From assembly GCA_022181065.1 (NCBI GenBank), contig BQMY01000125.1, forward strand, positions 1-49,542: a stretch of DNA of 49,542 nt, in the 5' to 3' direction. The DNA is from Melioribacteraceae bacterium. GTDB taxonomy: Bacteria > Bacteroidota > Ignavibacteria > Ignavibacteriales > Melioribacteraceae. Shown in pieces: positions 7,193-20,056 of this stretch (positions are counted from its first letter, which is position 1; each line of letters begins with the position of its first letter). Position numbers and translations under genes: made by a program. The notes beneath the pieces were generated by a model. That model was not told the DNA's origin, searched no databases, and worked only from the letters and a program-made list of their open reading frames with translations.

Positions 7193-8161
7193 TTAATCCA
7201 TTTCTTTATCATCGCCACCATTAAATTTTTCGTATGCGTCAATAATATCTTTAACCAGTTTATGCCTTACAACATCCTTCTTCTCGAAGAATACAAAACC
7301 AACACCATCCACATTGCGAAGTATTCTCTGCACATGTACAAGACCGCTGGTGGTTTTCGTCGGTAAATCGACCTGTGTATCATCACCGGTAATTATCGAT
7401 TTTGAGTTTGGACCCAATCTCGTGAGGAACATCTTCATTTGTGTCATCGTTGAGTTCTGGGCCTCGTCAAGAATTACAAAGGCGTTATTAAGAGTTCTAC
7501 CCCGCATATACGCGAGCGGTACAATCTCAACTATACTTTTTTCGATGTAACCTTTTAGCTGCTCGGCAGGAATCATATCCTGAAGAGCATCGTAAAGAGG
7601 ACGCAAATAAGGATCGATCTTCTCCCTGAAATCTCCGGGCAAAAAACCCAGTGATTCACCGGCTTCAACCGCGGGTCGGGCAAGCACAATTTTTTGTACT
7701 CTACCCTGCTTGAGTGCAGCAACCGCAAAAGCGACAGCCATATAAGTTTTACCTGTACCCGCAGGGCCAATAGCAAAACAGATGTCGTTTTTACGAACTA
7801 CATCAATATAAACGGCCTGATTGGGCGTTTTGGCTTTGATCACATCTTTACGAGTGTAAAGAATAATATTGTCATATTCATTACTGGCAATAATTTCCCG
7901 TCCCTGAACAGTAAGGTCAATAATAGTCTGAACATCATCAGGACGAAGTTTACCGCTGGTGTTGAGAACATAAACCATCTCTTTGATTATTTTCTCAACA
8001 GATTCGACCTCTTCACGAACACCTTTAATGTAAACGTTATCACCTCTGACTGTAACAGTGGTGTTAAAACTTTCTTCAACAGGCTTTAAGTTTGCGTCGT
8101 TAAAACCAAGTAACGCCAGTAAATCGACGTTTTCCAGTGTTATAATTTTTTCTACTTGCGT
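7193..8161 (-). CDS. phoH: PhoH family ATPase, apparent ACG start
   Basis: The cytoplasmic PhoH-family P-loop ATPase has Walker A (GPAGTGKT), FVILDEAQN as Walker B and the conserved TGDDTQVDLP. It is associated with RNA metabolism and stress in other bacteria. The first in-frame ATG is at 7976-7978 and would remove 61 residues of recognisable PhoH N-terminal domain (ENVDLLALLGFNDANL, TVTVRGDNVYIKG). That extension is open back to an in-frame TAA just before an AAGGAG ribosome-binding site (8170-8175). No ATG, GTG or TTG lies in between. An ACG eight bases after the site (8159-8161) gives 322 residues, the usual family length. Either ACG is the start or the base is an assembly error for ATG. 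Confidence 0.85.
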   Translation of the reverse strand, partial: TQVEKIITLENVDLLALLGFNDANLKPVEESFNTTVTVRGDNVYIKGVREEVESVEKIIKEMVYVLNTSGKLRPDDVQTIIDLTVQGREIIASNEYDNIILYTRKDVIKAKTPNQAVYIDVVRKNDICFAIGPAGTGKTYMAVAFAVAALKQGRVQKIVLARPAVEAGESLGFLPGDFREKIDPYLRPLYDALQDMIPAEQLKGYIEKSIVEIVPLAYMRGRTLNNAFVILDEAQNSTMTQMKMFLTRLGPNSKSIITGDDTQVDLPTKTTSGLVHVQRILRNVDGVGFVFFEKKDVVRHKLVKDIIDAYEKFNGGDDKEMD

Positions 8162-8218
8162 AACAAATTCTCCTTAAATATTAACAGTAATAAAAACCTG
8201 CATACAAACCCAAAAGTT

Positions 8219-8260
8219 CTAAAAAAAAGCCCTGATCACGCCAGGCATGAAAAGGGCTTA
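8219..8260 (-). terminator. Rho-independent terminator after the LysM gene
   Basis: On the minus strand a stem AAGCCC / GGGCTT encloses a loop holding a second small GCC..GGC dyad and is followed by a run of eight T. It lies 40 bases beyond the LysM gene stop and separates that gene from phoH. Confidence 0.8.
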
Positions 8261-8298: not shown

Positions 8299-8991
8299 TT
8301 AGTTAGTAGCGTTGTCTGCAGGAGCAGGTTTGTAATTTCTTCTAATTTTATCGTATTTAGCTTTTTCTTCATCTGTAAGGTTAGGAATTTTGAAAACCTG
8401 AGCAGGATAAATAAGATCAGGATTTTTGATCTGGTCGCGGTTAGCTTTGTAAATTACCGGCCATGCAAACGGGTTTCCATAATGCGCGTCTTTTTTCGCG
8501 ATACCCCACAGGTGATCACCCTTAACAACTGTATAGTTAATTTCTTTTGGAGCTTCTACCCAAGCGTCAAGCTTTCTCTGAAGTTCGTTGTGAACTTTGT
8601 TGTAGAATTCAGGAAGAGCGCTAATTTTATTCGCTTTAAGGTTATCCAATTCAGCTTGTCTGTCTGCTTTTTCAGGTTCTTTTCTGTTGATTTTACCTTC
8701 AAGAGCCTGAACTTTTTTTCTAAAGTTATCAATGTCTGCTTCTTTAGCGTCAACCATTGCATAAAGTTCTTTCATACAATCTTCATATGACTGAAGTTCA
8801 GCAAGAGTAGTTTTTGCCGCGTTAACTTCTTCCTGAAGAGTTTTGATATCTTCCTGAAGAGAAACTTTCTTTTCAGTAAGACGGTTTATTTCAGCTTGCC
8901 ATTCTTCTTTAGTCATTTCTTCTTGAGCAAATGCTGTAGCCGAAAGGAACAATAGTAGCATTATTCCAGAAAACAAATTTGCTAATTTCAT
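8299..8991 (-). CDS. Exported coiled-coil LysM protein
   Basis: This is a 230-residue envelope protein. A signal peptide (residues 1-22, ending AFA|QEE) is followed by a long charged coiled coil (about 25-130). A single LysM domain at about 152-203 (YTVVKGDHLWGIAKK, then NPDLIYPAQVFKIP) predicts peptidoglycan binding. A good ribosome-binding site (GGAGG) precedes the ATG. The neighbour upstream is a small coiled-coil lipoprotein, so together they may tether the outer membrane to the cell wall, which is inference. The terminator just downstream ends this unit. Confidence 0.88.
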   Translation of the reverse strand: MKLANLFSGIMLLLFLSATAFAQEEMTKEEWQAEINRLTEKKVSLQEDIKTLQEEVNAAKTTLAELQSYEDCMKELYAMVDAKEADIDNFRKKVQALEGKINRKEPEKADRQAELDNLKANKISALPEFYNKVHNELQRKLDAWVEAPKEINYTVVKGDHLWGIAKKDAHYGNPFAWPVIYKANRDQIKNPDLIYPAQVFKIPNLTDEEKAKYDKIRRNYKPAPADNATN

Positions 8992-9435: not shown

Positions 9436-10116
9436 CTATATAAGTCGGTTTTCTACCAGACTCGTATATTTATCACCGGCAATAATTAAATGATCAAAGA
9501 CCGAAATATCAAGTATTTTTCCCGCTTCTATCAAAGATTTTGTGATTTTTATGTCTTCATTACTTGGTTCTTCGTTTCCTGACGGGTGATTATGCACCAA
9601 AATTATATTTGCGGAATCATTATCGATAGCTACCTTAAATACTTCTCGCGGGTGTACCAAACTCGAATTTAGCGTTCCGACAGATATAATTTCAAATTTA
9701 ATAATTTTATTGGCACTATTTAAACAGACTACTATAAATTTTTCTTTAACTTCATCCCGAAGTAGCGGAATAAATATCTCTGCTATTTCACCAGGACTTG
9801 TAATCTTTTTATTCGAGTACCACTTACCCCCGCCTGAAATTCTTCTTGCCAATTCAAATGCGGCAGCTAACGTGGCTGCTTTATCCTTTCCTATTCCCGG
9901 ATATTTTTGAAGTGCCGTTACTGAACGGGTTGCCAAAAGTGAAAGATTTTCGTTTTTGAGAACAATCTCCCGCGCGATATCAATAACCGATCTGCCTTTC
10001 AAACCGGTCCTTAACAGAATTGCCAACAATTCTGCGTCACTTAACGCAGCGGCTCCTCTTAGAATCAGTTTCTCACGTGGTCGGTCATCCTGTGGAAGTT
10101 CTTTGACCTTGTAAAT
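9436..10116 (-). CDS. radC: RadC family JAB-domain protein, apparent ATT start
   Basis: RadC/UPF0758 proteins have an N-terminal helix-hairpin-helix-like region and a C-terminal JAB metalloprotease fold. Here the JAB metal motif is clear (ILVHNHPSGNEEPSNED). The historical DNA-repair role is doubtful. The conserved N-terminus (KELPQDDRPREKLIL, then ALSDAELLAILLRTG) is encoded upstream of the first in-frame TTG (10027-10029). The frame is closed by the TAA of the preceding TPR gene. Between that stop and the conserved region the only plausible start is ATT at 10114-10116, which follows an AAGGGGGG purine tract and gives 226 residues, the normal length. It is the last gene of a guaA-TPR-radC unit. 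Confidence 0.85.
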   Translation of the reverse strand: MYKVKELPQDDRPREKLILRGAAALSDAELLAILLRTGLKGRSVIDIAREIVLKNENLSLLATRSVTALQKYPGIGKDKAATLAAAFELARRISGGGKWYSNKKITSPGEIAEIFIPLLRDEVKEKFIVVCLNSANKIIKFEIISVGTLNSSLVHPREVFKVAIDNDSANIILVHNHPSGNEEPSNEDIKITKSLIEAGKILDISVFDHLIIAGDKYTSLVENRLI

Positions 10117-10125
10117 GCTCCCCCC

Positions 10126-13522: not shown

Positions 13523-14863
13523 TCACCTTTTTAAAAAATGTTTATCTATAAAAGACGTATCGTAATTGCCATTTATAAAATCCTCGTTTTCAAGCACCTG
13601 CTTGTGAAACGGGATTGTAGTTTTTATTCCTTCAACCATAAATTCTTCAAAAGCGCGTTTAGCCCTTTTGATGGCATGCTCCCTGTCGGTTCCCCAAACT
13701 ATTAATTTCGCGATTAAGCTATCGTAATACGGGGGTATGGTGTATTCATCATACACATGAGAGTCAACACGAACTCCGAAACCACCCGGGAAATGCAGAT
13801 ACTCTATCTTGCCCGGTGATGGTCTGAAATTATAATCCGGGTCTTCAGCGTTAATGCGGAATTCAAAACTGTGACCGTTAGGCTCATTAGGAGTATATTC
13901 GATCTCCTTGCCCGTAGCTACAAGTATCTGCTGCTTGATCAGATCAATACCTTGTATCATCTCGGTAACAGGATGTTCAACCTGAATACGGGTATTCATC
14001 TCGATAAAGTAAAAGTTCTGGTATTTATCGACCAAAAATTCGATTGTGCCCGCGCCTTCATAATTAACCGACATGGAACCTAAAACAGCGGCCTCGTTCA
14101 TCTTACGACGGGTTTCTTCTGTGATAAATGAGGAAGGAGCCTCTTCAATAAGTTTCTGGTGACGGCGCTGAACAGTACAATCGCGTTCACCGTATGAGTA
14201 AACATTACCAAATACATCCCCCATCACCTGAATTTCAATATGGCGAGGGTTTTCTATATATTTTTCGAGATAAAGTTCAGGATTGCCGAATGCAGCACCC
14301 GCTTCATTTGACGCTGTTTGATACGCTTTTTTTAGTTCATCCGCTTTCCAGACGATGCGCATACCTTTTCCGCCACCGCCTGCAGAGGCTTTCAGCATTA
14401 CGGGATAACCAATTTCCTCGGCTATTTTTAATGCCTCATCCTCATTCTTTAGCGCTCCTTCACTACCCGGAACAACGGGTACTCCGCACTCACGCATGGT
14501 AGATTTCGCAAGAGCTTTATCTCCCATTCTTGTAATCATATCGGGAGACGGACCAATAAACTTTATACCACTGTCAGCACAAATTTCTGAAAAATCAGCA
14601 TTTTCAGCGAGAAAACCATAACCCGGATGGATCGCCTCGGCTCCGGTAATCTGCGCTGCTGAAATAATACTTGGTATTTTAAGATAACTTTCCTTACTGG
14701 ATGGCGGACCAATACAAACTGCTTCGTCGGCAAGAACCACATGAAGGGCATCCTTGTCTGCTTCCGAGTAAACAGCGACAGTACGGATTCCCATTTCCTT
14801 ACAGGTTCTTATTATCCTTAAAGCAATTTCACCTCTGTTTGCAATAAGAATTTTATTAAACAA
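13523..14863 (-). CDS. accC: Acetyl-CoA carboxylase, biotin carboxylase subunit
   Basis: This 446-residue AccC carboxylates biotin on AccB using ATP and bicarbonate, the first half-reaction of malonyl-CoA formation. It has the biotin-carboxylase N-terminal domain ([16 protein letters not shown]), an ATP-grasp domain with the glycine-rich loop [15 protein letters not shown], the catalytic region [16 protein letters not shown] and a normal C-terminal domain (FRINAEDP). The start is TTG at 14861-14863, supported by GTGAGGTGAA a few bases upstream and by the conserved N-terminus; there is no ATG nearby. It follows accB by 23 bases. Confidence 0.96.
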
Positions 14864-14886
14864 AAATTCACCTCACCCGATATTAT

Positions 14887-15369
14887 TTATTCTTTTTCGA
14901 TGATAAACAGAGGTTGATTATATTCAACCGGTTTACCATTTTCAACAAGTATCTTAACTACTTTGCCGGCGACATCACTTTCAATTTCGTTCATAAGCTT
15001 CATAGCTTCAACGATACAAAGTACATTGCCGGATGATACTTTATCGCCAACCTGAATATAAGGATCAGCATCGGGAGAAGGCGCGCGATAAAATGTGCCA
15101 ACTATCGGGGATTTAACTTCATAATGCTTATCATTGGCAGCAGGTGCTTCCTGTGCCGGTTTAGCGGATTCCTGATCCTTTTCAACCTGTTTTGCCGGGG
15201 TAGTCTGAACTGACGCGACTTCCTGTACAACCGGCTGAGTATATACCGGTGCTGAATTCGCCTGTCGTTTTGATATCCTTACCTTCAGATCACCTTCCTG
15301 AACTGAAAAATCGGTTATATCACTCGTTTCAACTACCTTGATAAGCTTTTTTAAAAGATTTATATCCAT
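14887..15369 (-). CDS. accB: Acetyl-CoA carboxylase biotin carboxyl carrier protein
   Basis: AccB (BCCP), 160 residues, carries biotin between carboxylase and transferase. An N-terminal helical domain (about 1-35) is followed by a Pro/Ala/Gln-rich mobile linker (about 36-80). The biotinyl domain (about 85-160) has biotin attached at Lys124 in the perfect EAMKLMNEI motif. The ATG lies 11 bases after the efp stop, so efp and accB are one transcript, an arrangement common in this phylum. Confidence 0.97.
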
Positions 15370-19123: not shown

Positions 19124-19189
19124 TCTTATCTTTTTTTTAGGGTTGAAATTTTAATTTTTTCTTCACATCACAAAATTATCAGAGGTACT

Positions 19190-20056
19190 ATAAATAAGAG
19201 ATTACATTTTTATGTACTAATTGCAATTTCGTTGCTTATACTTGGATGCAACTCAAAGAAAGAACCAACCGAGAATAAAAACATTAGTATAATCTACGCA
19301 AATTGGGCAGGCACAGTTGCCCTTACTAATGTGACCAAAGTGGTTCTCGAACAAAAACTCGGTTACAATGTTAGACTCACCGAGGCTACAGTTAATGATA
19401 TATATCCTGCCCTGGCAAGAGGTGAATACGATTTTTTCATGGGTGCATGGCTTCCTAAAACACATGAACGATATCTGTATCACTATGATTACAAAATCAG
19501 AAATGTCGGGCCAAATTATCATGGTGCCCAAACCGGGTTGGCAGTCCCCGATTATGTTCCGGTTCAATCTATAACCGAACTTAATGATAACATTGATAAG
19601 TTTGGCGGCAAAATTACCGGTATTGAAGATGGGGCAGGCGTTGTCAACAATACTGAAGAAGCCAAAAGAGTTTACCAACTTGATTTCAGTATAAACACAA
19701 GCAGCACGCAATCTATGCTTCAGCAGCTCGATGACGCTGTTAAAAGAAACGAATGGATTGTTGTAACGGGATGGAGACCTCACTGGATGTTTTCGAGGTA
19801 CAACCTTAAATTCCTTGACGATCCGCAACAAATCTATGGAACAGTTGAATCAATCAATACAATCGCAAGGAAAGATCTCAGAAAAAGCAATCCACAGCTA
19901 TACAAATTTTTAAGAAAAGTTAACCTCACTCATGTTGAGATGGAGAGTTTAATAGATGATATAAATTATCTGCCGGGAAATCCTTACCAGGCGGCTAAAA
20001 ACTGGGCAGAAAAAAACAACGACGTGGTCAGTAAATGGCTACCCGATCAGGATTGA
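19190..20056 (+). CDS. Glycine betaine/choline-type ABC transporter binding lipoprotein, apparent ATA start
   Basis: This is an OpuAC/ProX-family substrate-binding protein of 288 residues. The family pattern is clear: NWAGTVALTNVTKVVLEQKL, GAWLPKTHE, IEDGAGVVNNTEE and VTGWRPHWMFSRYNLKFL, the last giving Trp residues of the usual aromatic ligand cage. The first in-frame TTG (19232) would leave only five residues before the lipobox Cys. Extending to ATA at 19190-19192 gives a textbook lipoprotein signal (NKRLHFYVLIAISLLILGC) with AGAGG four bases upstream. An in-frame TAA closes the frame further up and no ATG, GTG or TTG lies between. No permease or ATPase is adjacent. An osmoprotectant-uptake role is inferred. 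Confidence 0.85.
   Translation: MNKRLHFYVLIAISLLILGCNSKKEPTENKNISIIYANWAGTVALTNVTKVVLEQKLGYNVRLTEATVNDIYPALARGEYDFFMGAWLPKTHERYLYHYDYKIRNVGPNYHGAQTGLAVPDYVPVQSITELNDNIDKFGGKITGIEDGAGVVNNTEEAKRVYQLDFSINTSSTQSMLQQLDDAVKRNEWIVVTGWRPHWMFSRYNLKFLDDPQQIYGTVESINTIARKDLRKSNPQLYKFLRKVNLTHVEMESLIDDINYLPGNPYQAAKNWAEKNNDVVSKWLPDQD

Follow-up and report, generated by a model that had tools for sequence, protein, structure and literature searches.

Genes and Features at the phoH Locus

The window, a stretch of 49,542 nucleotides, is one contig of a 4.9-Mb Melioribacteraceae genome; its features are listed in Table 1. A gene on the minus strand scored 314.8 bits against PF02562 (cut-off 27), which places its product in the PhoH family. 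Against NCBIfam PRK10536, the equivalog for E. coli-type PhoH/YbeZ, the same protein reached 210 bits with a cut-off of 380, and it is therefore named here "PhoH family, YbeZ-like" and not YbeZ. Scanning the window for Rfam families and tRNAs gave no match.

The original prediction was that phoH has no canonical start codon, that an ACG would fit, and that 61 codons lie ahead of the first ATG, GTG or TTG. Re-reading of the strand returned the in-frame TAA (8174-8176, minus strand, overlapping the Shine-Dalgarno sequence AAGGAG), the spacing of 8 nt, the ACG and the ATG at 7978, all with exact coordinates. The lack of a canonical phoH start codon is confirmed as an observation.

TABLE 1. Position and strand of the features discussed, numbered from the first letter of the window.
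Feature	Position	Strand	Remarks
phoH, PhoH-family ATPase	7193..8161	-	322 codons if ACG-started; Pfam PF02562, E = 2.9e-94
First in-frame ATG of phoH (codon 62)	7976..7978	-	judged a non-start; upstream codons evolve as coding
ACG, proposed phoH start codon	8159..8161	-	ACG at this codon in 48/73 family sequences, ATG in 0
U at -1 of the phoH ACG	8162	-	T in 45/48 and C in 3/48; may form a fourth base pair with A37 of the initiator tRNA
Shine-Dalgarno (SD) AAGGAG	8170..8175	-	8 nt before the phoH ACG
lysM-phoH spacer: terminator-like hairpin with U-run	8220..8259	-	inner stem found; folding z-score of -1.93 over the full 136 nt
LysM-domain gene upstream of phoH	8299..8991	-	normal ATG; control; domain named by eye
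radC	9436..10116	-	ATT at 10114-10116 as proposed start; domains PF20582 (from residue 4) and PF04002
G-rich SD-like stretch GGGGGGAG	10118..10125	-	1 nt before the radC ATT
GAGG, SD-like	19182..19185	+	4 nt before the ATA of the betaine-binding gene
Glycine-betaine/choline-binding protein gene, OpuAC domain	19190..20056	+	proposed ATA start; PF04069, E = 1.6e-64

The 61 codons ahead of the first ATG evolve as coding sequence. Across the 48 species with ACG, parsimony changes per site in codons 2-60 of phoH amounted to 6.95, 3.22 and 15.85 at the first, second and third codon positions, and codons 1-62 contained no in-frame stop. Translation from the ATG at 7978, with the 61 upstream codons left untranslated, is hardly credible: this ATG is indeed the first canonical phoH codon in the window, but the codons before it show coding-type substitution and remain stop-free in 48 species, and the strong SD precedes the ACG.

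The phoH Start Codon in the Family and the Order

We compared genomes of the Melioribacteraceae and of other Ignavibacteriales. PhoH matches were present in 57 of 58 genomes (the window's own included, the others 62-78% identical) and in 76 of 79 family genomes. The resulting table covers the order with 128 distinct phoH starts (identity of 60% or higher), 73 of them from the family (34 genera) and 55 not assigned to it. Sequences below 60% identity and identical copies were dropped, as were G065 and G100, which have no 5' end, and the fragment G018, which also shows ACG. A rapidly built PhoH tree, whose branches are weak, covers 126 of the 128 sequences, with L116 and L223 left out.

Inspection of the same site in close relatives, proposed earlier as a check, bore the prediction out. 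ACG occupies the same phoH codon in 48/73 family sequences and 22/34 genera, counts that are not independent of phylogeny, and ATG was found at this codon in none of the 73. The other 25 family sequences were placed partly by eye from the start table. Four have CTG at the codon, three have CTG one codon later (by eye; two of the genus of G008 and one other), and one (L004) has TTG at the codon together with a strong SD; less sure are one sequence with AAG or the following CTG and one with a possible ATT. The remaining 15 have ATG at other codons. A near-cognate codon is thus found at or beside the site in 57/73 family sequences, five of them placed by eye.

Outside the family, 54/55 sequences have ATG one codon upstream, mostly without an SD, and in L116 a stop occupies the ACG position. 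Together with seven family members, 61 sequences carry ATG one codon upstream of the ACG position. ATG re-arose at -1, -2, -4 or downstream in several clades, never at the ACG codon.

Thr stands at the phoH codon, with no earlier ATG, in 50 family sequences; 48 of these have ACG, and the two with ACT and ACC have CTG next. Because ACG makes up 8.2% of Thr codons in the sampled genes, its presence in 48/50 exceeds chance. Where phoH starts with ATG, codon-2 Thr was ACT in 27, ACG in 11, ACA in 8 and ACC in 4 cases. No canonical in-frame codon occurs back to the stop in 25/48 ACG sequences (in 8/48 the stop lies within five codons); the other 23 have an upstream in-frame canonical codon, which in 12 is at -4 and overlaps the SD and in 2 is a GTG at -2. 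The whole family appears to start phoH at ACG and to have kept this codon.

SD Sequence and -1 Base of phoH

GGAG or GAGG was detected upstream in 48/48 ACG phoH sequences vs. 8/61 ATG sequences. The longer GGAGG is present in 44/48 ACG sequences, and its core is separated from the ACG by 4 or 5 nt in 43/48. All 12 family ATG sequences that were examined for an SD lack one (12 bases were inspected in the -4 cases; L192, L210 and L226 were outside the list). Among these 12, the ATG at -4 in L223 hits a stop, and the true phoH start is a later ATG. One CTG sequence, L198, has no SD by the motifs used.

The base at -1 of the ACG is a pyrimidine in 48/48 sequences. Parsimony assigned three changes to -1 vs. 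15, 25, 20 and 15 changes to positions -2 to -5; the zero changes at the ACG codon itself are circular among sequences chosen for ACG. T precedes 41% of the SD-led ATGs in the sampled genes. Esposito and colleagues in 2003 reportedly described an extended codon-anticodon interaction, in which U at -1 pairs with A37 of the initiator tRNA. Position -1 has also been linked to how stably the initiator tRNA pairs (PMC5622118).

radC, the Betaine-Binding Gene and rsgA

The RadC identity was supported by PRK00024 (241.4 bits, cut-off 180). In the window, the first canonical codon of radC is a TTG at 10029, 29 codons after the ATT, and a later start would truncate PF20582, since in the ATT-started protein this domain is matched from residue 4 onward. 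The proposal that radC starts at the ATT at 10114, in the lack of a canonical codon, withstood re-reading, and the window gene has company: in 31/103 distinct radC sequences the stretch from the stop to the conserved VKELP box is free of canonical codons. At a position two to four codons ahead of the box, these 31 carry ATT (24), CTG (5) or ATC (2), as read by eye. Starts of radC are nevertheless mixed, because 69/103 have a canonical codon within nine codons of the box. Since the G-rich stretch before the ATT directly adjoins the stop of the TPR gene upstream (10126), radC may be translationally coupled to that gene.

The third near-cognate start that had been proposed is the ATA at 19190, where the first canonical codon is a TTG at 19232. 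The ATA-started protein has a lipoprotein-like signal peptide with a lipobox-like LILGC in frame (by eye). Here the anatomy stood up to re-reading, and the ATA is a putative start; no orthologue was found at E ≤ 1e-30 in 57 other genomes. A paralogue elsewhere in the genome (L063) has a normal ATG after AAGGAG.

A further gene, rsgA, surfaced in a wider orthologue comparison (see below). RsgA matches to TIGR00157 were above the curated cut-off in 69/75 family genomes, including the 30 loci that were read. A single column holds ATA (12), ATT (12) or ATC (5) in 29 of 33 family sequences and ATG in none of the 33. In 22 of these 29 no canonical codon occurs back to the stop, and 27/29 have an SD-like motif (loose, 4 bases). 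At -1, rsgA has T in 16, A in 10 and C in 3 sequences, and the phoH rule for this base therefore does not extend to it. The window genome's own rsgA (L317) departs from this pattern: its ATG lies one codon upstream. Among 30 infC loci (L280-L309), 28 were readable and 26 of these start with ATC or ATT (by eye; L305 and L306 differ); among 30 ybeY loci, the start is canonical in 24/24 readable cases. As a side observation, ybeY in L340-L369 often starts with TTG (by eye).

Extent of Putative Non-canonical Initiation

Three near-cognate starts in ∼35 genes had been taken to suggest either tolerated near-cognate initiation or a systematic sequence error. In a comparison of neighbouring genes we counted how often a canonical start is absent at the conserved N-terminus. 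The figures were 34/118 for phoH and 28/106 for radC, lower than the codon counts above because the rule also accepts upstream canonical codons. In the phoH neighbourhood they were 0/112 for lysM, 0/41 for guaA and 0/32 for the TPR gene; a lipoprotein gene gave 4/109, another cluster 6/44, and two more 1/19 and 1/21. Some clusters of ∼80-115 residues also gave high rates; on visual inspection they were excluded as antisense shadow ORFs.

The wider comparison, with a sample centred on phoH and not random over the genome, flagged 84/1231 genes in 184 orthologue clusters: 28 were phoH or radC, 2 were rsgA and 54 were others. Judged by eye, most of the 54 are either shadow ORFs or genes whose normal ATG lies 8-25 residues inside the alignment, and the clusters judged real were phoH, radC and rsgA. 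An SD-based scan ranked phoH as the top outlier both in 240 kb of the own genome, including the window (145 genes), and in 400 kb of G008 (283 genes), in the latter by a modest margin; the scan is insensitive, as radC went unlisted and the ATA gene was not above the print threshold. Most other compared genes look normal, and loose initiation throughout the genome is not supported. A general tolerance, as the three cases in the window might suggest, is likewise not supported.

A special initiator tRNA reading ACG was also considered and rejected: the own genome contains one standard initiator anticodon stem-loop, GGGCTCATAACCC, and no version with a CGT anticodon, a weak result with nine matches vs. 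six in the control.

Separately, in G008 an open frame in L181 (∼13642-15118, plus strand; ArgRS-like by eye) has its first canonical codon at residue 79. Its orthologues align from its first residue, which points to a frameshift or an odd start.

Hairpins Upstream of phoH and rsgA

The window hairpin lies farther from the phoH start than usual and was unscored by the hairpin script. A hairpin followed by a T-run was found within 90 nt upstream of 36/48 ACG phoH sequences, ending 16-24 nt away in 34, and, likewise within 90 nt, upstream of 56/61 ATG phoH sequences. Across the order such a hairpin usually ends 16-24 nt ahead of phoH. For rsgA the count was 17/27, with 12 hairpins within 25 nt. 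SD-led ATG control genes gave 4/231, but part of this contrast reflects standing behind a terminator, because the controls include operon-internal genes. The short distance from hairpin to start leaves little space to fit a promoter, so phoH and rsgA mRNAs probably arise by terminator read-through, which would also fit low expression. A role of the hairpin as a read-through attenuator is possible.

Comparison With Known Systems

The classic case is infC, the translation gene for initiation factor IF3, which starts with AUU, AUC or AUA and is autoregulated by IF3; like phoH it combines a conserved near-cognate codon with an SD-like motif upstream. The two differ in that infC has a mismatch at the third position of the codon, whereas the ACG of phoH is mismatched at the second. 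Control by IF3 has been described for E. coli infC (PMC13009471).

In Staphylococcus aureus, cvfC1 starts with AUU, and ccpN and citZ start with AUA; such starts gave ∼10% of the AUG yield in poor medium, and ccpN up to 30% in rich medium (PMC13009471). The non-canonical starts of cvfC1 and ccpN are conserved and have a strong SD, like that of phoH, and are the closest published precedent that we found. They concern other genes, a Firmicutes species, and AUU and AUA only (PMC13009471). The text of this source has no mention of "ACG start", "rsgA" or "phoH".

Three marks of infC, cvfC1 and ccpN are found here as well. In many sequences a canonical start is absent at the homologous N-terminus of phoH, radC and rsgA. 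The codon is one base away from ATG and conserved, in radC mixed with canonical codons. A strong SD at normal spacing was counted in 48/48 phoH and, with the loose motif, in 27/29 rsgA sequences; in the window's radC the G-run stands only 1 nt before the ATT.

GUG and UUG starts go with stronger SDs, and positions -1 to -3 are coupled to the start codon (Belinky et al., 2017; PMC5622118). That work concerns GUG and UUG with selection for AUG, whereas in phoH a non-canonical codon is kept against ATG. Chloroplast genes resemble phoH in their bacterial-type ribosomes and in conserved non-AUG starts, which there tune yield; they differ in belonging to an organelle, where ACG is commonly edited to AUG (PMC9845219).

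In the open-licence papers searched we found no report of ACG starts of bacterial phoH or of non-AUG starts of rsgA, and none that takes the start codons of Ignavibacteria as its subject. Conserved near-cognate starts as such are already known; here the codon is an unusual one, and for the genes involved these papers gave no such report.

Selection for a Weak Start as the Preferred Reading

We consider it very probable that phoH starts at ACG, that the SD and the U at -1 compensate for the mismatch, that the weakness of the start is selected to hold PhoH low, and that radC and rsgA use the same device. The ordinary initiator tRNA would initiate Melioribacteraceae phoH at ACG. The second-position mismatch would be offset by the strong SD 4-5 nt away and probably also by a fourth pair between U at -1 and A37. 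Selection would keep the weak codon since PhoH synthesis thereby stays low. Because the tested sequences show either a strong SD with a weak codon or an ATG without an SD, we infer that a low rate of phoH translation is selected, and the two arrangements would be two routes to a similar rate. The starts of radC (ATT, CTG, ATC) and rsgA (ATA, ATT, ATC) would work as the same low-yield device. These starts are also expected to be sensitive to IF3, which serves accurate start-codon selection (PMC11497404).

The SD of phoH may, on the other hand, merely be required by the ACG, with ATG-started phoH never having had one. This would explain part of the SD/codon pattern, but it leaves the absence of ATG at the phoH codon unexplained.

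A more far-reaching proposal joins phoH, rsgA, infC and perhaps radC in a translational regulon that would sense the fidelity of initiation. Under a shortage of IF3, or with immature 30S subunits, weaker discrimination against near-cognate codons would yield more 30S-maturation factors; if true, start codons would encode a feedback from ribosome quality to ribosome assembly. RsgA is a 30S-maturation GTPase, and PhoH/YbeZ is a partner of YbeY, which is described as acting in 16S rRNA maturation. We regard such a regulon as doubtful. The ybeY starts are canonical in every readable locus, phoH misses the YbeZ cut-off, the window genome's own rsgA uses ATG, and RadC is, to our knowledge, not a ribosome factor.

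Neutral drift, in which near-cognate starts are tolerated since little PhoH and RadC is needed and their weakness is unselected, seems unlikely to us. The codons of radC are mixed across the order, the phoH start has moved repeatedly, and radC may be coupled to its upstream gene, all of which would suit drift. Against it, ATG is one transition away from ACG and absent at the phoH codon throughout the family table, and it is equally absent at the rsgA column; ATG does arise at neighbouring phoH codons, there without an SD; and the phoH SD and U at -1 are strongly kept. The original prediction had offered tolerated near-cognate initiation as one of two explanations. Near-cognate initiation itself is supported for phoH and radC by conservation across many separate assemblies, but "tolerated" is too weak a word for phoH: its ACG has been retained jointly with the strong SD and the U at -1, and no sequence has ATG at the codon.

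We know of no bacterial mRNA editing of the C-to-U kind that would turn the phoH ACG into AUG after transcription, and ATT and ATA at the like sites of radC and rsgA could not be made AUG by it. Although ACG-to-AUG editing occurs in chloroplasts (PMC9845219), this explanation is highly improbable for phoH. The other explanation offered at the outset was a sequence error, here a sequencing or assembly error masking a genomic ATG. In its favour, all three window cases are single-base variants of ATG, but it has a practically negligible chance for phoH: the same ACG recurs in 48 family sequences of separate genomes, other near-cognates occur in further ones, and CTG is the apparent phoH start codon in the single-contig genomes G008 and G089. 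Conservation in separate assemblies refutes systematic error for phoH and radC, though not for the ATA gene.

Selection for a weak start thus remains the preferred reading. Since a single mutation would give ATG, the retention of a weak start suggests selection for low or fidelity-dependent synthesis, and the non-canonical starts probably keep PhoH, RadC and RsgA scarce. With its conserved ACG and a pyrimidine at -1 in 48/48 species, phoH also offers a natural test of an extended codon-anticodon interaction. Gene finders in common use recognize ATG, GTG and TTG as starts, and genes with near-cognate starts are consequently annotated too short; the window phoH would lose 61 codons in this way.
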